Source of the DNA: Fidelibacterota bacterium
GTDB lineage: Bacteria; Fidelibacterota; Fidelibacteria; Fidelibacterales; Fidelibacteraceae
Direction of reading: 5' to 3'
DNA: 52,422 bases
Assembly (NCBI GenBank): GCA_018400915.1
Contig: JAGYLW010000002.1
Span: 1-52,422 of the forward strand
Part shown: piece by piece, positions 1,092 through 39,555 of the stretch
Numbering within the stretch: the first letter of the stretch is position 1
How the letters are laid out: each line of letters starts with the position of its first letter
Program-made: the position numbers and the translations under genes
The notes under the pieces: generated by a model
Databases searched by the model: none
Told to the model about the DNA's origin: nothing
The model's input: only the letters and a program-made list of their open reading frames with translations

Positions 1092-2551
1092 TGATAGATG
1101 ATCCGTCCTTCCACTTCCGTATTGATATCGGGATTTTCCCTGACGGCCCGGATCATCACCTCGCGGTCCAGCCAGCCGGTGTCCTTGTAGTCCGGGACCG
1201 GCATATCAAAATAATTGGGCGCCTGGCTCGCCGAATAATCGTTGGTGGCGATCGTGTAGGTGCTGCCGGGATCGACAGGATCGCCGTCAACGGCCGCACC
1301 GACAAGCCCTCCGCCATCTTCCAGCACCAGGCGTATACCGGAGAACTGCAGATGGCGGCGTTTTACTGCCATATTGTTGAGCGCTTCCAGCAGTTCCTCC
1401 CCGGTCCATTCAAAGGTCACGAGGCGGTTCCCGAAGGGAGCGATCTCCCAGATGTCGCGCACCGTAACGGGGCCTGCCTCCAGGTTCTTCCGGATGCCTC
1501 CGTTGTTCATGATGGCGATATCGGCGCCGCTTGCTTCGCGGTAAGCATCCGCGATCCAGTTGCCGATGTTCGACTCACCGCTGCGCCGGACCCAGGGGAT
1601 TTTCAGTTCACCGATCGTTTCGTCCATTTGCTCCGCCAGCTCTTCTTCGTAAGCGGAGATCAGGGCCTCCACGTCTTTCGAAGGTTTCAGTTTCCCGGCA
1701 ACGGTCTCGACATAATCCATTTCCAGGGAAGTGATCTCCCCTTTTTCCGCATGGAAACGGGTCAGTCCCACATAACGGCCCTGGTCGTCCGCTTGCACGA
1801 TCCATACGCCGTTCACCTGTTCCGGCTCGCGCATGTAGGTGTGGCTGTGCCCCCCAATGATCAGATCGATCTCCGGCACCGCCTCCGCCAGTTCACGGTC
1901 ACCCTCGATGCCGATATGGGAGACGACGATAAAAGTGTGCAGCCCGCGTTTTTTCAACTGTCTGATCAGGTTCTTTGCCGAGCTCACCGGGTCATCCACT
2001 TTTACGCCCTCCAGGTTTTCGGGCATCGTCAGGAAATCCAGCCGGGGGTGGGTCAGGCCGATCAGCACCACGGGATAGCGCCGGATCCTGAACACCTTGT
2101 ACTGCGGCAGGGCGCTTTCACCGTTTCGCGTATCGACAAGATTTGCGGCATACATCCCGAAGTCCGCCAGATGCCGCCGCAGGGAGTCCACATGCCGCCA
2201 GGAATAGTCAAATTCATGATTTCCGATGGTGAAGAAGTCGGGCTCAACAAGGTTCAGGATCTTGATCTGCGACACGCCCTTTGTCACCGCACAGACCGGC
2301 GATCCCTGGAAATCGTCACCCGCATGCACGCGCAGCGCGGTGGGATACTCGTTTTCCAGGCTGTCAAGATAGGCGTCGAACAGGGCATAGCCCCCGACCG
2401 TATGGCCTTCGTCATTATACGCCGTGGGCGTCCAGGGAAGGTTCTGGCTGTGGAAATCATTCCAGTGCAGGATAACGATATCCCCGGAGGGCGCGGTACA
2501 GCTGCTGAGAACAATGATGAGAGCGAAAAGGATCGAATTGAAATACTTCAT
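1088..2551 (-). CDS. 5'-nucleotidase / UshA-family metallophosphoesterase lipoprotein
   Basis: A 487-residue secreted enzyme with a lipoprotein signal (VLSSC, Cys 18). The N-terminal metallophosphatase domain has the dimetal motifs in order: HWNDFH (29-34), GDDFQGS (78-84), GNHEFD (110-115), a SHIG motif near 212 and GGHSHT near 233. The C-terminal half (from about 310) is the 5'-nucleotidase substrate-binding domain, with NNGGIRKNLEAGPVT and an ATNDY segment. The family hydrolyses nucleoside 5'-monophosphates or UDP-sugars outside the inner membrane for salvage; the exact substrate cannot be read from sequence. Shine-Dalgarno GGAAGGA lies 6 bases before ATG. It lies 41 bp downstream of the aminopeptidase gene and overlaps the next gene by 4 bp. 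Confidence 0.85.
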   Translation of the reverse strand: MKYFNSILFALIIVLSSCTAPSGDIVILHWNDFHSQNLPWTPTAYNDEGHTVGGYALFDAYLDSLENEYPTALRVHAGDDFQGSPVCAVTKGVSQIKILNLVEPDFFTIGNHEFDYSWRHVDSLRRHLADFGMYAANLVDTRNGESALPQYKVFRIRRYPVVLIGLTHPRLDFLTMPENLEGVKVDDPVSSAKNLIRQLKKRGLHTFIVVSHIGIEGDRELAEAVPEIDLIIGGHSHTYMREPEQVNGVWIVQADDQGRYVGLTRFHAEKGEITSLEMDYVETVAGKLKPSKDVEALISAYEEELAEQMDETIGELKIPWVRRSGESNIGNWIADAYREASGADIAIMNNGGIRKNLEAGPVTVRDIWEIAPFGNRLVTFEWTGEELLEALNNMAVKRRHLQFSGIRLVLEDGGGLVGAAVDGDPVDPGSTYTIATNDYSASQAPNYFDMPVPDYKDTGWLDREVMIRAVRENPDINTEVEGRIIYQ

Positions 2552-2592
2552 GTTTTATCCTTCCAAACGGCGTTGTGAATATTCCCGGTTTT

Positions 2593-4005
2593 TCAGCTTT
2601 TCAGAAAAGCTCCGAACGCCCGGTACATCATCCAGATATCCGCTTTCGAGGTGATCTCGAACGGTGAGTGCATGTCCAGAACGCCAACACCGGCATCAAT
2701 GACCTTCATGCAATAGTAGGACATGAATTTCGCGATGGTCCCGCCGCCGCCTTCATCCGTCTTTCCCAGTTCGGCGACCCGCCACACAATATTATTGCGG
2801 TCAAAAAGGTCCCGCAGCTGTGCAACATACTCTGCCGGCGCTTCATTGGAACCGCCCTTGCCGCGAACACCGGTAAATTTCGAGAGGGTAAGTCCGCCGT
2901 TGATATAGGCGGCGTTCCGCAGCTCGTGCACCTCTTTCCAGTCCGGGTGCACCGCCGCGTTCACATCGGCGGAAAGGCATTGGGCATTTGCCAGCAGGCG
3001 GCGGACGACCCCTGACTGGTCAAGGCCGTGCCGCGCCAGGATATAGCCCAGCACCAGCTCGGCGATCCAGGTGTTCGCACCGGAGGCGCCTTCACTGCCG
3101 ATTTCCTCCTTGTCCAGGAGCAGGATCAGCGACGAAACGTCCGGGTCGTCGGTGTCGGTCACGGCACGCAGCGCGGAAAAAGCGCAGACCCTGTCGTCCT
3201 GTCCGTATGCACCGATCAGGGCACGGTCAAGCCCCACATCACGGGCCTTTCCGGCGGGAACGATCTCCAGGTCCGCAGAGATAAAATCATCTTCCGTAAT
3301 ACCGTAGGCTTCGTTCAGCAGGGAAAGCACATGCAGCTTGACGCGGTCCTTTACTTCCTTGTCATCGGTGAAAGGACGGCCCCCGAAAAGAATGTTCAGT
3401 TTTTCGGCGGGAATGAATTCATCGGCCTTCTTTCCCATTTGCGCTTTTTTCGCAAGATGCGGCAGGAGGTCGGAGACCGTAAAGACAGGATCGTCCTCGG
3501 CTTCACCGATCACAATGCTGTCCACCGTTCCGTCCGGAAAGGCGATGACGCCGTGCAGTGCCATCGGCCTTGATACCCACTGATATTTCTTGATCCCGCC
3601 GTAATAATGGGTCTTCAGCATGGCAAGTTCTTCATCTTCATACAGCGGATATTGCTTCAGGTCCAGGCGCGGTGAATCCACGTGCGCCACAATGATGCGC
3701 AGGTCCTTCTGGATCGGGGCCTTTCCCTGGCGGAACACCGCCAGTGCGCGGTCGTGGTGATTATAGTAGATCTTTCCGGTGTCCTTGGTCGTCCGTATAT
3801 TGCTGAACCCGGCCTTTTCCAGCATTTCGACCGCGGTCTCCACGGATTCGCGCTCGGTTTTCGCAAGGTCCAGAAAACTGCGGTATTCCCGCATATAATT
3901 TTCCAGGTGTTTCATCTGGGGATCGGGAATATGGTCCCAGGCATTTTTCCTTTCCCAGAACAGGGCTTCTTTCAGTTCTTTGGGGTCGGTTTTTTTCCCT
4001 AACAT
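2593..4005 (-). CDS. M18 family aminopeptidase
   Basis: A 470-residue cytoplasmic zinc aminopeptidase of the aspartyl aminopeptidase / aminopeptidase I type (MEROPS M18). Motifs seen: HVDSPRLDLK (metal-binding His about 108), GQDDRVCAFSALRA (bridging Asp and active-site region), LLDKEEIGSEGASGAN (catalytic and metal Glu) and a C-terminal DMHSPFEITSKAD with the last metal His. The start at 4005 is chosen over the upstream in-frame ATG at 4056 because AAGGAG sits 6 bases before it and homology begins there. It leads a probable operon with the nucleotidase and NlpC-like genes, suggesting peptide and nucleotide scavenging, though that link is inferred. Confidence 0.9.
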   Translation of the reverse strand: MLGKKTDPKELKEALFWERKNAWDHIPDPQMKHLENYMREYRSFLDLAKTERESVETAVEMLEKAGFSNIRTTKDTGKIYYNHHDRALAVFRQGKAPIQKDLRIIVAHVDSPRLDLKQYPLYEDEELAMLKTHYYGGIKKYQWVSRPMALHGVIAFPDGTVDSIVIGEAEDDPVFTVSDLLPHLAKKAQMGKKADEFIPAEKLNILFGGRPFTDDKEVKDRVKLHVLSLLNEAYGITEDDFISADLEIVPAGKARDVGLDRALIGAYGQDDRVCAFSALRAVTDTDDPDVSSLILLLDKEEIGSEGASGANTWIAELVLGYILARHGLDQSGVVRRLLANAQCLSADVNAAVHPDWKEVHELRNAAYINGGLTLSKFTGVRGKGGSNEAPAEYVAQLRDLFDRNNIVWRVAELGKTDEGGGGTIAKFMSYYCMKVIDAGVGVLDMHSPFEITSKADIWMMYRAFGAFLKS

Positions 4006-4069
4006 GTACAACTCCTTTTTTTCTACGTCTAATATAGGACTTTCAGTGTAAAACAAAAATGAAAAAGAA

Positions 4070-4079
4070 GGGGGGGGGG
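4070..4079. repeat. Homopolymer run of 10 G
   Basis: Ten consecutive G residues end at 4079, directly joined to the tandem array at 4079-4182 and about 65 bp upstream of the M18 start codon at 4005. Such tracts are prone to slippage. No consensus promoter could be placed firmly between it and the gene. Confidence 0.85.
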
Positions 4080-4182
4080 AAGCTAAGAAGCAAAGAAGCG
4101 AAGAAGCGAAGAAGCGAAGAAGCTAAGAAGCTAAGAAGCGGAGAAGCCGGGAAGCAGGGAAGCAGGGAAGCAGGGAAGCAGC
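4079..4182. repeat. 8-bp tandem repeat array, GAAGCNNN x13
   Basis: Thirteen consecutive units of the form GAAGC plus three variable bases (TAA, AAA, GAA x3, TAA x2, GGA, CGG, AGG x3, AGC). Units drift from A-rich to G-rich along the array, as expected from local duplication. It is the same repeat as at 1-56 but in the opposite orientation. It fills most of the 253-bp gap between the M18 gene and the prolyl oligopeptidase gene; the rest of that gap (4183-4258) shows nothing else. Confidence 0.95.
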
Positions 4183-4258
4183 GGGGGGAGCGAAGAGGCG
4201 GCCGTCCCGCTCTCTGCCGCTGCAGGACTTCCCGCGACTTACTATTTACTTCTTACTG

Positions 4259-6355
4259 TTAATCCACGATCTTCAAAATAAACGCATACTCAAATGCGAC
4301 CTCTTTATACACCTGAAATCTTCCGGAGGCCCCGCCGTGACCGTAATCCATTTCCGTTTTCAGCAGCAGGAGATTGTCATCGGTCTTCATATCGCGCAAT
4401 TTTGCGGTCCATTTCGCGGGCTCCCAGTACTGCACCTGGGAATCGTGCAGGCCGGTCGTGATCAGCATGTGGGGGTAATCCTGCGCTTTGACATTGTCAT
4501 ACGGCGAATAGCGCAACATGTACTCATAATATTTTTTCTCGTTGGGATCGCCCCACTCGTCGTATTCGCTGGTCGTAAGCGGAATGCTTTCATCCAGCAT
4601 GGTCGTCACCACATCCACAAAAGGGACCTGCGCTACGATGCCGGCGAATTTCTCCGGCGCCATATTGGCAACGGCACCCATCAGAAGTCCTCCCGCACTG
4701 CCGCCCATCGCGACCAGTTTTCCGTATGTCGTATACCCTTCTTTGACAAGATGGTCCGCACAGTCGATAAAGTCGGTGAAGGTGTTCATTTTATTGAGCA
4801 GCTTTCCCTCCTCATACCATTCTCGCCCCCTCTCCTGACCGCCGCGGATATGCGCGATCACATAGATAAAGCCGCGGTCAAGGAGACTCAGCCGTACGGA
4901 ACTGAAATAGGGATCCATGTTCATGCCGTAAGACCCGTAGCCGTAAAGCACCAGCGGCGCACTGCCGTCCTGCGGCGTGTCTTTCCTGTATACCATGGAC
5001 ATTGGAACACCGGTGCCGTCATCCGCTTTTGCCCGGATCCGGCGGGTTTCATAATCGGCGGGATCGAAATCTCCCAGCACCTCGCGCTGTTTTTTCAATT
5101 CCTGTTCCCCGGTGATCATGTGATAATCGTAGGTAGTGTTCGGGGTTGTCATGGATTCATATCCGTAACGCAATATTTGCGTATCAAATTCCGGATTGGT
5201 GCCGATCCATACGTCGTACGCCTCCTCATCAAACTGAATATACTCGTCCACCTTCCCCCGGTAACCCAGGATCCGGAGACGCGGGAGCGCATTGCTGCGT
5301 TCCTGCACGACATAGCGGTCCTCAAAGAACTCTGCGCGTTCCAGCAGGACCTCTTCGCGGTGCGGAATGATCTCCTTCCAGTTCCCGCGCCCGGGATGTT
5401 TCGCCGGCGCGGCGACCAGTTTAAAATTCTTTGCATTGTCGTTGGTAAGGATATAGAAAACATCCCCCACATCACTGGGATGATATTCCAGTCCCCGCAC
5501 GCGTTCCTGGATGACGACCGGTGCCGCAAGCGGATCGTCTGCCGGGATATAACGGTATTCCGTTGTCAGTGTGGATTCGGACACCAGCATGATGTACTTT
5601 CCGCTCTTCGAGCGGTACACGCCGTGATAAAAGGTGCTCTCCTTCTCGTCAAAGACAAGAGCGTCCTCACCGGGGGATGTTCCCAGGCGGTGGCGCCGGG
5701 TCGCCGAGGGGCGCAGGGTCTCGTCCCGGGTGTTGTAGAAGACGGTCTTGCTGTCGTTCGCCCAGGCGGCGGAACCGGGCGTATTCTCAATGCGGTCGGG
5801 CAGGAACTCCCCGGTCTCGAGGTCCAGGAAACGCAGGGTGTATTTCCGGCGGCTCAGCGTATCTTCCCCAAAGGCAAGTATCCGGTTGTCGGGGGAAACA
5901 TAAAGGCCGGAGACATGATAGTAGGCGTAACCTTCCGCCATCTTGTTCACATCCAGCAGGATCTCCTCTGCGGCATTTTCACTTTTTTTGCGGCAGTAGA
6001 CGGGATATTCTTTGCCTTTCTCATAGCGGTGATAGTACAGGTATCCGTGCTTCCGGTAGGGAACCGAGACGTCGTCCTGTTTGATACGGGCCACCATTTC
6101 CCTGTATAATTTTTCCTGCAGTCTTTTGGTGCGCTTCATTTGCGCTTCGGTATACGCATTCTCCGCCTCCAGGTATTCGATGACCGCGGGATCTTCACGG
6201 TCGCGGAGCCAGTAATAGGGATCCGTGCGTGTATGCCCGTGTATCGTGAGCTCCTTGTCGATCTTTTCTGCGTTGGGTGCTTCTGTCATGGTATCTCCGC
6301 ATGAATGAAATATCAGCAGTGAAACGAACACCACGATGCCGGATAGCTTTTTCAT
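4259..6355 (-). CDS. Prolyl oligopeptidase (S9A, oligopeptidase B type), lipoprotein
   Basis: A 698-residue serine peptidase with a lipoprotein-like signal (LLIFHSC, Cys about 19). An N-terminal beta-propeller (about 75-410) precedes an alpha/beta hydrolase domain with the triad Ser 553 (GGSAGGLLMGA), Asp 638 (TGLHDSQVQYWEPAKW) and His 673 (DYGHGG). The sequence around the Ser and the YWEPAKW block are typical of PtrB/oligopeptidase B, which cuts after basic residues in short peptides; specificity here is inferred. Length matches the family. Shine-Dalgarno GGGGAG lies 6 bases before ATG, and the gene starts 16 bp after the UPF0316 gene. Confidence 0.9.
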   Translation of the reverse strand: MKKLSGIVVFVSLLIFHSCGDTMTEAPNAEKIDKELTIHGHTRTDPYYWLRDREDPAVIEYLEAENAYTEAQMKRTKRLQEKLYREMVARIKQDDVSVPYRKHGYLYYHRYEKGKEYPVYCRKKSENAAEEILLDVNKMAEGYAYYHVSGLYVSPDNRILAFGEDTLSRRKYTLRFLDLETGEFLPDRIENTPGSAAWANDSKTVFYNTRDETLRPSATRRHRLGTSPGEDALVFDEKESTFYHGVYRSKSGKYIMLVSESTLTTEYRYIPADDPLAAPVVIQERVRGLEYHPSDVGDVFYILTNDNAKNFKLVAAPAKHPGRGNWKEIIPHREEVLLERAEFFEDRYVVQERSNALPRLRILGYRGKVDEYIQFDEEAYDVWIGTNPEFDTQILRYGYESMTTPNTTYDYHMITGEQELKKQREVLGDFDPADYETRRIRAKADDGTGVPMSMVYRKDTPQDGSAPLVLYGYGSYGMNMDPYFSSVRLSLLDRGFIYVIAHIRGGQERGREWYEEGKLLNKMNTFTDFIDCADHLVKEGYTTYGKLVAMGGSAGGLLMGAVANMAPEKFAGIVAQVPFVDVVTTMLDESIPLTTSEYDEWGDPNEKKYYEYMLRYSPYDNVKAQDYPHMLITTGLHDSQVQYWEPAKWTAKLRDMKTDDNLLLLKTEMDYGHGGASGRFQVYKEVAFEYAFILKIVD

Positions 6356-30259: not shown

Positions 30260-30364
30260 ATCCCCCTCCTTTCTTTTTCAGGTAAACAGGAGCATGTCAG
30301 ATCGGTTTTGGTTGCATTTCTCGCATAAATGTATGATTTTCCGTCTTGGAGTGCAAGCGGACCT

Positions 30365-32191
30365 ATGAATAATGTGACAGACATCACCGCATCAAAACGA
30401 AAAATCCTGCCGGACAGGCCCGGCGTCTACCTTTATTACGATATCAACAAAACGGTCATTTATGTCGGCAAGGCAAGGTCCCTGCGGAAGCGGGTGGCTT
30501 CCTATTTCCGTGAAAAGGTGCCGGACCCGAAAACCCGGGTGCTGGTATCAAAGATCGCCGATCTCGACTGGATCATCACCCATTCCGAGGTGGAGGCGCT
30601 GTTGCTGGAGAACAATCTGATCAAACAATATGCGCCGCGCTATAACGTGATGCTCAAAGACGATAAAAGCTATCCCTATATCTGCATCACCGACGAACCC
30701 TTCCCGCGCGTGTTTTCCACCCGCAACGTCATACAGAACGGATCGCGCTATTTCGGCCCTTATACCGATTCGAGACATATCAGGAACCTGCTGAGGACGA
30801 TCTACCGGATATTCCCGGTGCGCACCTGCAGCAAAAAGATCGCGCCGCAGGGGAACCCCGGCGACGAGCCCTGCCTGCAGTACCATCTGAAAAACTGCGA
30901 CGCTCCCTGTACCGGCAATATCTCACCGGAAGTCTACCGGGGCATCATTGAGGAGATTGTGCGCTTTCTCAACGGCAACACCCGGCCCGTCATTACGCGT
31001 CTGAAAAACGCAATGGATGCCGCTTCCGCCGAGATGCGTTATGAGGATGCCGCCATTCTCCGGGACCGCCTCCGGATCCTGAAAAAATACAAAAACCGGC
31101 AGACGGTGATCCAGACCGATTTTAAAAGCCGGGATGTCATTGCGCTTGCAACGGCGGAACATGACGCCATTGTGGTGGTGTTCCGCCTGCGGGAGGGCAT
31201 CCTGATCGGCCGTGAACGCTTTCACCTGAAAAACATCGAGCAGCAGCACGATCAGGAGATCCTCAAGGATTTCATCCGCAGGTACTACGAAAGAACAAGC
31301 CTGTACCCCGAAGAGGTCTTTCTGGACCTCAACGAGGATATTGCCCTTTTCGAAAGCTATCTGAAAGTCCTGTCGGACAGGAACATCCGCATTGTCCGCC
31401 CCGAACGCGGAAAGAAGGCCCGCCTTTTCACCCTGGCCAAAAAGAATGCGGATATGCTGCTGAAAGATGTGCTCCTGCAAAAAATGAAACGTTCCATCCA
31501 GCCGGGTAAAATGGTGGAATCCCTGCAGCAATCGCTTAATCTTTCCGCTCCCCCTCTGCATATCGAAGGCTTCGACATATCCCATTTTCAGGGGGAGGAG
31601 ACCGTCGCTTCCATGGTCTATTTTGAGAACGGGGACCCCAGACGCTCGAAATACCGGAAATTCACGATCCGATCCGTTGAAAGACCGGATGACTTTGAAA
31701 GCATGCGGGAGGTGATCGGCAGGCGTTACCGGAGGCTGATGAATGAGAACGCACTTCTGCCCGACCTCATCCTTGTGGACGGCGGCAAGGGACAGCTGAA
31801 TGCCGCCAAGACGGTGCTGGACGGTCTGGGGCTGAACAATATCCCGGTAATCGGCCTCGCCAAGCGCCTTGAAGAGGTCTTCGTTCCCGGTTATTCCCAG
31901 GCTCAGAATATTCCCAAAGGCGCACCGGCGCTCATCCTGCTCCGGCGCATTCGTGATGAGGCCCACCGTTTTGCCATCCGTTTTCACCGAAGCAAGCGGA
32001 GGAAGCACATGAAAAAAAGCATTCTGGACGACATTCCGGGGATCGGTGAAACACGGAGGAAAAAACTGCTGTCCGCTTTCGGCTCGGTCAAAGCGATGCG
32101 GAAAGAGAATGCGGAGGCGATCGCCGAAAAAGCGGGGATCCCCCTGAAACTGGCAAAAACCCTGCTGAAGACCCTGAACGATGGATCATAA
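30365..32191 (+). CDS. uvrC: Excinuclease ABC subunit C
   Basis: A 608-residue nuclease that makes both incisions in nucleotide excision repair with UvrA and UvrB. Domains in order: GIY-YIG (PGVYLYYDINKTVIYVGKAR, about 20-90), UVR/UvrB-contact (MDAASAEMRYEDAAILRDRL, about 208-240), the RNase H-like nuclease with IEGFDISHFQGEE and LILVDGGKGQLNAA, and two helix-hairpin-helix motifs at the end (LDDIPGIGETRRKKLLSAFG). The start at 30365 is preferred by homology; ATG at 30329 would add 12 residues. Its end overlaps the next gene by 11 bp. Confidence 0.95.
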   Translation: MNNVTDITASKRKILPDRPGVYLYYDINKTVIYVGKARSLRKRVASYFREKVPDPKTRVLVSKIADLDWIITHSEVEALLLENNLIKQYAPRYNVMLKDDKSYPYICITDEPFPRVFSTRNVIQNGSRYFGPYTDSRHIRNLLRTIYRIFPVRTCSKKIAPQGNPGDEPCLQYHLKNCDAPCTGNISPEVYRGIIEEIVRFLNGNTRPVITRLKNAMDAASAEMRYEDAAILRDRLRILKKYKNRQTVIQTDFKSRDVIALATAEHDAIVVVFRLREGILIGRERFHLKNIEQQHDQEILKDFIRRYYERTSLYPEEVFLDLNEDIALFESYLKVLSDRNIRIVRPERGKKARLFTLAKKNADMLLKDVLLQKMKRSIQPGKMVESLQQSLNLSAPPLHIEGFDISHFQGEETVASMVYFENGDPRRSKYRKFTIRSVERPDDFESMREVIGRRYRRLMNENALLPDLILVDGGKGQLNAAKTVLDGLGLNNIPVIGLAKRLEEVFVPGYSQAQNIPKGAPALILLRRIRDEAHRFAIRFHRSKRRKHMKKSILDDIPGIGETRRKKLLSAFGSVKAMRKENAEAIAEKAGIPLKLAKTLLKTLNDGS

Positions 32192-34465: not shown

Positions 34466-34538
<73 letters not shown>

Positions 34539-34809
34539 CTTCACCGTATATCCCGTGTCCGTCCCTCCGGGAACCACCGTCGCCGGGCACTGATCCATGA
34601 TCCCGTTCATGATGCTTCCGGGCATATTCCCTGTTTATGCTTTCAATGTACAGGTGTCCGGCCGAAAACCGATCCTGCGTCCGCAATACTATCCCCCCGT
34701 ATTCCCGGCAAATCTTCCCGTCCGCGGTAAAGCGGTGAAAAAAAGCTTCTTTCTCCGGGAATAAATCTTGTATTTTACCGGTTGATGCAAAAAACAAAGG
34801 TGAAAGACC

Positions 34810-36441
34810 ATGAGTGAACTGAAAGCGCAGCTGCACAATATCTTCGGCCGGGAGCCGGAGGCAATGGAGTTAAAGGCGTTTGCCTGTTTTGACCCGGAGG
34901 CGAAAGACCGCAAAAAGCGCTTCCGGAAATACAGCGAATCACAGCCCCTGTTCCTGAATATCGATGATGAACATTATTTGTATGTCAGCCACCATACGAA
35001 CCGCCTCCGCTGCAAGCTCGACATGGCCACCCGGCACCTGGACACGGTGCTTTGCTACCCGCACGGCAGGGGGAGTATTATGCTGGGGGTCACCCGTCCG
35101 GAGAAAGAACGCCATCTGCATTCGCGGAAAACGAAATACCGCATTTTTGTGCAGAACGCAAGGCAGATCGACGAGGACCTCCTGCATGCAGCCAGCGAAT
35201 ATGCCGACCATATGGCGCTCATTCAGGATGAGAGTCCCTGGGAACGGCTTTGCAGGGTTTGCATTGATACCGGGACGGGAGGCCATATCACCGCATCCGC
35301 CCGGCGGCTTTTCGCCGATTACGAAAGCGGGATACTATATGTCGTTCCCGAACACCACAATACCGCCTTTAAAAAAATCTCCGCCGGTTTTGAACTGCAA
35401 CCGCAGTTTCTCGGGACAAGCGTTCCCTTTCCCATACTGAGCCTCGATAATGAAGACGGTCTTCTGGAGATCCCGCTCAGCACCCTGCGCAGTCTCCGGG
35501 ATTCCATGCAACGATACCGGGAAAACCGGACACCCTACCGTGAAAAGGCCGGCAAGACCCCCCTGCCCGACATCAGACCTTCCTATCGGGAGCAAACCGA
35601 TCTGCTTCTGGACTTTCTGAAGAAGGAAAACGAAAAGGATCCTTCGCGGAATTATAAGGTCCCCGGGAATGCGCCGGACCTTCAGATCGATCCTTTTCCC
35701 CTGAGGGGCCTTGCTTTCAGTGAGAACGGGATCCAGCTGCACGTCCTCTCCGCCATCGTCAATCTGTATTCGCGGGGTTTGCAGCCGCTCGCATTAAGCT
35801 ACTATATGGAAAGCACGGTCACAGCGCCGCAAAAGCTTGACCAGCTTCTGGAAGCAATGAAAAAAGGTGCGGAGCTTTTTGAGGTCCCCATCGCCAATCA
35901 CTGTATCGTACCGGGCGATGCGAACCGGCTGAAACTCTTTTTTGTTTCCAGACACCGGAAAACAGCCGTTCCGCAGGTCTTTCAGGACGCCGGGGATTTC
36001 ATCTGCCTCCTGGGCGATCCCGGCGGTACGATCAGGGGTTCCGCCTATGCCGAAGCGCTCGGATACCAAAGCGTATATTCCCCTCCGGGAGTGATGCGCG
36101 GTACGATCGCGGCAATGATCAACGTACTCGAAGAGTGCGAAAGAAAGGAAATATTATCCTCCGTCAATGCCATACAGCGGGGAGGGCTCTTTGCCGCTCT
36201 GCACCGTGCCTGCGGCCCGGACCTGGGCGCCTCCGTCTATTCGGAACGGAAAAGTCCGGAGCAGGTCTTTATCTTCGGGGAACCGCAGGCGGCGCTCCTG
36301 GTCAGTATCAAAGAGAAAAATCTTATTGATCTTGCCAGGATCACCTCCAATTATAATCTTACCTCGACAACGATCGGGCGTGTCCGGGAGGCCGGGGAGA
36401 TCAATATCAACAACGTCCTTCATTACAGGACCGGACGCTGA
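34810..36441 (+). CDS. Strongly diverged PurL-like protein (PurM fold)
   Basis: A 543-residue cytoplasmic protein. Its second half resembles the A2-B2 half of phosphoribosylformylglycinamidine synthase PurL: PLALSYYMESTVTAPQKLDQ (about 325-344) matches the PLA-x-x-x-LN-x-GNP segment; LLGDPGGTIRGSAYAEALG (about 397-415) matches the LLG...GGSEY block; IQRGGLFAALHRACG (about 454-468) matches the SEGGL helix; FGEPQAALLVSI near 484 and TIGRV near 525 match the end. The usual active-site and ATP-binding sequences of PurL were not found in the N-terminal half, which I do not recognise. It may be a catalytically altered paralogue or regulator. AAAGGTG before ATG. Confidence 0.55.
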   Translation: MSELKAQLHNIFGREPEAMELKAFACFDPEAKDRKKRFRKYSESQPLFLNIDDEHYLYVSHHTNRLRCKLDMATRHLDTVLCYPHGRGSIMLGVTRPEKERHLHSRKTKYRIFVQNARQIDEDLLHAASEYADHMALIQDESPWERLCRVCIDTGTGGHITASARRLFADYESGILYVVPEHHNTAFKKISAGFELQPQFLGTSVPFPILSLDNEDGLLEIPLSTLRSLRDSMQRYRENRTPYREKAGKTPLPDIRPSYREQTDLLLDFLKKENEKDPSRNYKVPGNAPDLQIDPFPLRGLAFSENGIQLHVLSAIVNLYSRGLQPLALSYYMESTVTAPQKLDQLLEAMKKGAELFEVPIANHCIVPGDANRLKLFFVSRHRKTAVPQVFQDAGDFICLLGDPGGTIRGSAYAEALGYQSVYSPPGVMRGTIAAMINVLEECERKEILSSVNAIQRGGLFAALHRACGPDLGASVYSERKSPEQVFIFGEPQAALLVSIKEKNLIDLARITSNYNLTSTTIGRVREAGEININNVLHYRTGR

Positions 36442-36528: not shown

Positions 36529-36870
36529 ATGAAAACAGAAGAGAATACCAAAAGCAGGCTCGCTCAGTGGTGGGAAAGCATCAGTCCCAGGATCGATGAA
36601 GCCTACAAGACCACCAAGGAGAAAGCGGAAGACTTCGGCCGTATCGGCAAGCTCAAATATGATATTTATCAGACACGCCGGATCTTACAGAAATGTTATC
36701 AGGAACTGGGTGAAAAGGTCGCTGCATGGGTGGACGAGAAACAGGATTACAACATGCAGGAACTGGAACATATCGATGATATGCTGACCCAGATCCGTGA
36801 CCTGAAGGAAAAGATCTCCTTACTTGAAAAAGAAGTGCTGGAACTTCAGGCGGAAGAAAAGATAAAATAG
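36529..36870 (+). CDS. Small coiled-coil protein of unknown function
   Basis: A 113-residue hydrophilic protein without signal peptide. The first 40 residues are polar and partly amphipathic (ISPRIDEAYKTTKEKAEDFG), then heptad-like helices fill about 45-113, ending EKISLLEKEVLELQAEEKIK. The N-terminal half resembles short helical stretches in many unrelated bacterial proteins. No family recognised. GGAG is 6 bases before ATG and a strong promoter precedes it, so it is likely well expressed and monocistronic or with the tRNA 21 bp downstream. Confidence 0.7.
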   Translation: MKTEENTKSRLAQWWESISPRIDEAYKTTKEKAEDFGRIGKLKYDIYQTRRILQKCYQELGEKVAAWVDEKQDYNMQELEHIDDMLTQIRDLKEKISLLEKEVLELQAEEKIK

Positions 36871-36891: not shown

Positions 36892-36974
36892 GCCCGGGTG
36901 GCGAAATCGGCAGACGCGCTAGGTTCAGGGTCTAGTGTCCATCGGACATGCGGGTTCAAATCCGCCCCGGGGCT
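36892..36974 (+). tRNA. tRNA-Leu (anticodon CAG) with abnormal 3' end
   Basis: A type II tRNA: acceptor 5' strand GCCCGGG, D stem GCG/CGC, anticodon stem CTAGG/TCTAG with loop TTCAGGG giving anticodon CAG, and a long variable arm TGTCC/GGACA, all as in bacterial tRNA-Leu(CAG). The 3' part is off: in the canonical register, G5-G68, C50-C64 and G51-G63 are mismatched, and base 73 is T rather than the A that leucyl-tRNA synthetase needs. A strong terminator follows at once, so it is transcribed. CCA is not encoded. It may be a decayed or altered tRNA, or a local sequence error. Confidence 0.75.
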
Positions 36975-38011: not shown

Positions 38012-39222
<1,211 letters not shown>

Positions 39223-39226
<4 letters not shown>

Positions 39227-39498
39227 GATTCCTTCTCCATGTTGTTCAGCATTTTCAGACTGACCGCATTGGGGTTTTTGAGTATTCTGGAACCCCGCGT
39301 GATCTTGCAGAGACTGATATGGTGTTTTTCCGCAATGTGACGCTGGGTCTCACCGTGATAGAGATCCTTCATGAGGCGCCATCGGAACACCAGTGCCTCC
39401 AGTTCGCTTTCCGTCAGTATTTCCCCGAGAAATTGTTTCATTTCCTCCGCTTCCGTGATGCGGCAGAAAACCTTTACGATCTCATTATAGGTATGCAT
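39223..39498 (-). CDS. TrpR/YerC-family transcriptional regulator
   Basis: A 91-residue helical DNA-binding protein of the Trp repressor superfamily. Conserved features: [43 protein letters not shown] spans the core helices and helix-turn-helix (given here in pieces: [30 protein letters not shown]). The start at 39498 is set by GGAG 5 bases upstream. The overlap with trpB and a candidate operator upstream suggest true TrpR function (L-tryptophan corepressor) rather than the YerC group; this is inference. Confidence 0.85.
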
Positions 39499-39515
39499 GG
39501 TTACTCCGCTTGTTA

Positions 39516-39533
39516 CTATGGATAGAAACATAG
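39516..39533 (-). promoter_or_regulatory. Candidate TrpR operator
   Basis: An inverted repeat CTATG-N8-CATAG overlaps the -10 box of the candidate promoter of the trpR-like/trpB pair, the position expected for a repressor site. A repeated GTTACT (39500-39505 and 39512-39517) is adjacent. It is not the E. coli operator sequence. Confidence 0.4.
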
Positions 39534-39555
39534 GGTAAAAAACCGGGGCTTCCAA
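39527..39555 (-). promoter_or_regulatory. Candidate sigma-70 promoter for the trpR-like/trpB pair
   Basis: On the minus strand TTGGAA (39555-39550), a 17-bp spacer and TATGTT (39532-39527) lie 28 bp before the start codon. Confidence 0.45.

Follow-up and report, generated by a model that had tools for sequence, protein, structure and literature searches.

The window analyzed here is a 52,422-nucleotide stretch of DNA from a member of the Fidelibacterota, the phylum previously called Ca. Marinimicrobia (SAR406; also Neomarinimicrobiota), which has an isolate, Fidelibacter multiformis IA91 (PMC11652737). A forward-strand ORF at 34810-36441 (ATG at 34810 preceded by a Shine-Dalgarno-like AAAGGTG; stop codon at 36439-36441) encodes a protein of 543 residues that has homologues across the phylum (dN/dS 0.08-0.2 among them) and is referred to below as pPurL, for degenerate PurL. 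As an earlier note made from the sequence alone had stated, the gene lies between two tRNA genes, and ARAGORN places these on the same strand at 34466-34539 (tRNA-Ala, CGC) and 36892-36973 (tRNA-Leu, CAG). The interval is shared with a second forward-strand ORF (36529-36870) that encodes a 113-residue protein of unassigned function without a confident Pfam match. This protein, which is possibly a coiled coil, is encoded directly 3' of pPurL and recurs at this place in two congeners (cluster cl18; L061 and L064). Upstream, uvrC (30329-32191, forward strand, assigned by Pfam) adjoins both native and degenerate PurL genes in relatives and is the synteny marker for the native PurL locus; the order in the window is uvrC, two genes, the tRNA gene, and pPurL. 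Further downstream on the reverse strand (38012-39555), trpB follows a small ORF that, judged by eye, resembles TrpR/YerC-type regulators, with an overlap of 4 bp.

Similarity of pPurL to PurL in sequence and predicted structure

Searches of Pfam-A with the window protein gave no match even at E≤10, and the FGAR-AT linker domain (PF18072), not detected in pPurL, had its sole match in the genome in a purL gene on another contig, C188. Matches to the NCBIfam PurL models are confined to residues 383-533. NF002290 scores 59.9 bits (E=1.4e-16) against a cut-off of 648, over model positions 545-696, which correspond to the B2 domain, and TIGR01736 scores 38.4 bits (E=4.6e-10) against a cut-off of 525.75. 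Hence the B2 domain is recognizable as PurL by sequence and the protein as a whole falls short of the NCBIfam cut-offs. The nearest PurL found by phmmer in the PDB was that of Thermus thermophilus (E=1, pPurL residues 389-512). The herpesvirus v-FGAM-synthase model TIGR01739 did not match the window protein at E≤1; one relative, L080, matches it weakly in B2 (E=2e-5).

The similarity to PurL is nonetheless more than chance, because five congeneric genomes have full-length copies with 50-54% identity and PurL is the top match of the predicted structure. An AlphaFold model of pPurL (m8f6596f256e7, built from 13 aligned sequences) had a mean pLDDT of 79.4 and a pTM of 0.54. When compared with the PDB by Foldseek it returned PurL structures first (3viu, E=1.6e-27) and then PurM, HypE, and ThiL (E ~1e-11), so the structure prediction suggested in the earlier note places pPurL, as a predicted fold, in the PurM superfamily. 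The TM-score is modest (0.45), which calls for caution in reading the domain arrangement from this model. A second model, for the 666-residue g3 form, was poorer (pLDDT 67.6). By predicted structure pPurL has a fold in common with PurM, HypE, ThiL, and SelD (AIRS/AIRS_C). However, those proteins are active ATP-using enzymes with a single A-B pair, whereas pPurL, a descendant of the duplicated PurL, no longer has the nucleotide motifs.

Domains and motifs lost or kept

Alignment to the linker of native PurLs identifies pPurL residues 1-40, FGREPEAMELKAFACFDP (34810-34929, forward strand, as are all features of the gene), as a remnant of the N-terminal linker that lies below Pfam detection. The A1 and B1 domains (residues ~46-222; 34945-35475) are shrunken and, by the motif table and the secondary structure of the model, lack FGAM-synthase motifs. 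They are followed by an A2-like domain (residues ~280-382; 35647-35955), which retains the fold in model m8f6596f256e7 and has lost its motifs in the alignment, and by the B2 domain (residues 391-535; 35980-36414), delimited by the NF002290 match and the per-domain identity. The identities to a native PurL were 7/63 for A1, 13/115 for B1, 12/104 for A2, and 58/151 (38%) for B2, and the other degenerate lineages gave the same trend. B2 is therefore the only part of pPurL with clear PurL sequence similarity, and it is also the part best conserved between lineages. The reported motif-by-motif agreement of the C-terminal half with the PurL A2-B2 layout holds for B2 but not for A2, in which the motifs TDGNGRY, ESARN, NCLNFGNP, and TGGNVSFYNES could not be recognized by alignment of the window protein.

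Native PurLs contain ESHNHPSA, the catalytic motif of A1, and the ATP/metal motifs of B1. All A1 and B1 motifs are absent from the window protein, as had been proposed for its ATP and active-site sequences. The same loss was seen in every family member aligned: ESHNHPSA, TGRDG, VQVGDP, QDxGAAG, and SESQER are gone in 33 sequences from 13 families (32 degenerate sequences plus the intermediate G077). Across these sequences the linker is either gone or a remnant, the A2 motifs are at best partial, and the residues that replace the lost A1, B1, and A2 motifs differ between lineages. The G077 protein (L131, 8967-11096) is a PurL of 709 residues encoded at the uvrC locus and caught in mid-degeneration, with a linker that is still weakly recognizable and active-site motifs that are gone. 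Although the overall fold prediction is PurL-like, we give hardly any credence to the possibility that pPurL continues to make FGAM by means of other residues, given the disappearance of the linker, the catalytic His region, TGRDG, VQVGDP, QDxGAAG, and SESQER, a model score one-tenth of the PurL cut-off, and the presence of a complete PurL in the genome.

Origin of pPurL and the replacement PurLs

Only one PurL, of 740-780 residues, is found in many of the phylum's other families, and T. thermophilus PurL matches a 744-residue PurL of the phylum at E=1.5e-182. An intact PurL of 744-750 residues is encoded beside or near uvrC in families f3, f6, f8, and f9, and in f2 and f8 a gene of the FAA-hydrolase family (FAH) lies 3' of the intact PurL. 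The degenerate loci read uvrC-pPurL-FAH in genus g3 of the host family, f1, uvrC-pPurL in f10, f17, and f18, and recA-recX-pPurL, with or without FAH, in f12 and other families. As the degenerate genes have the same place as the intact PurLs, they are the phylum's own PurL (745 residues) rather than a paralogue from elsewhere. A degenerate gene is carried by genome G015, which is a single contig of 2,788,509 bases. pPurL thus shares its locus, its descent, and its predicted PurM/PurL fold with the native enzyme, a small-type PurL (FGAM synthase II; TIGR01736/NF002290), but it has 543 rather than ~745 residues, lacks a detectable linker domain and the catalytic motifs, is not in a pur operon, and coexists with a second, complete PurL. 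Viral contigs scanned for relatives of PurL yielded a single copy, from a phage.

The standard purL that the earlier note advised looking for is on contig C188 of the host genome, where a gene for 995-1002 residues adjoins purM, purQ, and the start of purH in the order purM-purL-purQ-purH. Over 807 residues the 1002-residue protein shares 65% identity with a PurL from a Saprospira plasmid. It is the sole complete PurL found in the host genome (L073, 2205-5189, G000) and has THNSPS where other PurLs have SHNHPS (Ser in place of the second His), a feature shared with the Saprospira relative; its N-terminus gives a weak PurS-like match (E=0.058). Replacement PurLs are of ~1002 residues in f1 and mostly of 777-832 residues in f10-f12, f17, and other families. 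These types are only distantly related, as the longer type's Saprospira relative has 28.5% identity to the shorter one.

We took a census of 150 genomes at least 85% complete by comparing the B2 profile and the PurL linker domain genome by genome, with 15 f5 genomes, whose PurL sits in a purine operon, left out. The counts come from hand-entered lists, in which G130 was reclassified as having an intact gene that is split, and G077 as having a degenerate one. An intact native PurL was the only PurL in 46 genomes and was accompanied by another PurL in one (G133, 4% contamination), and hence stands alone in 46/47, whereas a degenerate gene was found with another PurL in 41/51 genomes and without one in 10/51; these genomes are not independent events, and most are MAGs in which an absence may be an assembly gap. 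Auxotrophy in all ten of the purL-less genomes was considered and rejected, in that G101 keeps purE-B-F-D-N-H and probably lacks a contig; some of the ten absences are probably due to gaps of this kind. No native-locus gene was detected in 37 genomes. The gene is absent from the streamlined genomes of f7 and from part of f12 and f25, and the function must therefore be dispensable in those lineages. Most of the f7 genomes (0.8-1.0 Mb), with no detectable native or degenerate gene, encode only a PurL of ~778 residues, and in three no PurL was detected.

Selection on the degenerate genes

The frame is open in every degenerate copy examined, and dN/dS was 0.08-0.21 among pairs with dS<1 (Nei-Gojobori, calculated with our own script), which indicates that the degenerate genes encode intact proteins under selection. 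The shrinkage from 745 to 543 residues, the missing catalytic motifs, and the loss of the gene in some lineages are what would be expected of a decaying pseudogene of the displaced native PurL. That reading is contradicted by the selection data together with B2 residues that are invariant in 32/32 sequences, and we consider it very improbable.

A genome that retains the degenerate gene without the purine pathway

Genome G034 is 96% complete in about 10 contigs, and no purM was found in it. Its congener G099 has the cluster purA-purL-purM-purQ-purC-purE-purB-purF-purD-purN, whereas contig C4 of G034 reads purA-purB followed by purF residues 1-141 fused to purN, an in-contig deletion. In L165 (G034 C4:336001-350000) the region 2362-6309 shows purL-M-Q-C-E removed between purA and purB, and the purF-purN fusion is in frame. 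G034 is thus probably a natural purine auxotroph within the phylum, and of the ten genomes where a degenerate gene was found without a second PurL, it is the only one shown to have an in-contig deletion. A superfamily scan of G034 returned the degenerate gene plus a single protein of 331 residues, which is probably ThiL. The degenerate gene is intact (579 residues) and under selection, with a dN/dS of about 0.11-0.12, a value that is approximate as dS is near 2. Retention of the gene in the absence of purL, purM, purQ, purC, and purE indicates that the retained role does not need FGAM synthesis.

This genome bears on the possibility that the dead PurL is an accessory or regulatory subunit that binds the replacement PurL, PurQ, or another enzyme of the pathway to tune FGAM synthesis. 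Homology to PurL and the second PurL present in 41/51 genomes fit such a role, and the PurL pseudoenzymes of herpesviruses recruit active PFAS (PMC10820379). However, G034 keeps the gene intact without PurL, PurM, PurQ, PurC, or PurE; the replacement PurLs are of two distant types (1002 and 780 residues); and no purine operon examined contains the degenerate gene, in keeping with the isolation from purine genes noted previously. We therefore regard a regulatory subunit as quite unlikely. The herpesvirus vGATs, tegument homologues of v-FGAM-synthase (TIGR01739), are, like pPurL, PFAS/PurL homologues without catalytic residues, and they are kept for protein-protein functions (PMC10820379). They differ in being viral, larger (the model has 1206 positions), and active against host defense, whereas pPurL is a native bacterial gene that has lost length and kept only B2 well, and the two are not close kin. 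Retention of the gene in G034 without a PurL also argues against a vGAT-style action by recruitment of an active PurL.

A B2 signature shared with intact native PurLs

Five positions of B2 (F397, K481, E502, R524, and N534) do not vary among the degenerate sequences (32/32), and they were compared with 10 native PurLs and 10 external PurLs from other phyla or phages. F397 (35998-36000) and N534 (36409-36411) are present in all 10 native PurLs and in 0/10 and 1/10 external PurLs, respectively. E502 (36313-36315) likewise gave 10/10 native and 1/10 external. In the pair R480-K481 (36247-36252), K481 is found in 9/10 native, 0/10 external, and none of the replacement PurLs, and in T521-I-G-R524 (36370-36381), the IGRV motif, R524 is found in 8/10 native and 3/10 external PurLs. 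The seven replacement PurLs examined lack K481, E502, F397, and R524. The signature is carried by intact native PurLs and missing from replacement PurLs, which makes it probable that the proposed second function was already present in the native enzyme. The signature could also be structural, for example by stabilizing the native version of the domain.

Members of the PurM superfamily catalyze diverse reactions. The invariant charged and polar residues of B2 raise the possibility of a new enzyme in which the PurM fold is re-used and an active site is built from K481, E491, E502, R524, and N534. Yet the PurL motifs of A1, B1, and A2 are lost with substitutes that differ between lineages, and the same B2 residues are present in intact native PurLs and thus did not arise for a new reaction. 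A new enzyme seems to us unlikely.

One or several degenerations

The host family shares its order with family f2, in which PurL is intact and FAH lies 3' of it. A tree of UvrC proteins groups all sampled degenerate lineages but cannot decide the matter, as f2 has no uvrC on its contig. In AU tests on B2 alone a single clade of degenerate genes was not rejected (p 0.16 and 0.12), and proven separate origins were downgraded on that result. In trees, however, the FAH proteins of f2 and g3 are sisters (100/99) and their B2 domains group together (92/98). These groupings plus the two kinds of replacement PurL favor at least two degenerations. It is likely, but not proven, that the degeneration of PurL took place in parallel, in at least two lineages.

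Discussion

We propose, with a probability of roughly two in three, that the native Fidelibacterota PurL became a pseudoenzyme that is kept for a non-catalytic function of B2, a function that the native enzyme probably already had. In the host family FGAM synthesis would have passed to a different, Bacteroidota-like PurL of 1002 residues, encoded in the purM-purL-purQ-purH cluster. The copy left at the uvrC/FAH locus would then have lost its linker, the A1/B1 catalytic site, and the nucleotide-site motifs of A2, with purifying selection preserving the fold and B2. What is retained would be a non-catalytic function that does not depend on de novo purine synthesis. B2 would most likely be a binding or scaffold module that presents F397, R480-K481, E502, T521, R524, and N534 to a partner. 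We infer that the role is one of binding, that it is seated in B2, and that it is older than the displacement. The earlier suggestion of a repurposed PurM-fold protein with a regulatory or new catalytic job is thus borne out in its first part. Retention of the gene where de novo purine synthesis has been lost favors a non-catalytic role over that of a regulator of purine synthesis, and new catalysis is less likely.

A broader version, on which we are evenly divided, is that native PurL was a two-function protein and that at each foreign takeover (by at least two different replacements) the catalytic part was shed and the pseudoenzyme kept, so that the functions were separated repeatedly. In either form, much of a phylum has kept the dead orthologue of a core metabolic enzyme after that enzyme was displaced, and one species has done so despite having lost the pathway. 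To our knowledge, PurL pseudoenzymes are known from herpesviruses only. A search of open-access text found no paper on a bacterial PurL pseudoenzyme, nor any that joins Marinimicrobia with PurL or purine biosynthesis. Retention of pPurL points to an unrecognized second function of PurL, and the losses narrow the search to one domain and a handful of residues.

The neighboring uvrC, recX, and FAH genes are the first partner candidates, but synteny is weak evidence here because intact relatives have a similar gene order. In several lineages (L069-L072, L076, L082, and L131) uvrC and pPurL overlap by 4-20 bp, which suggests translational coupling.
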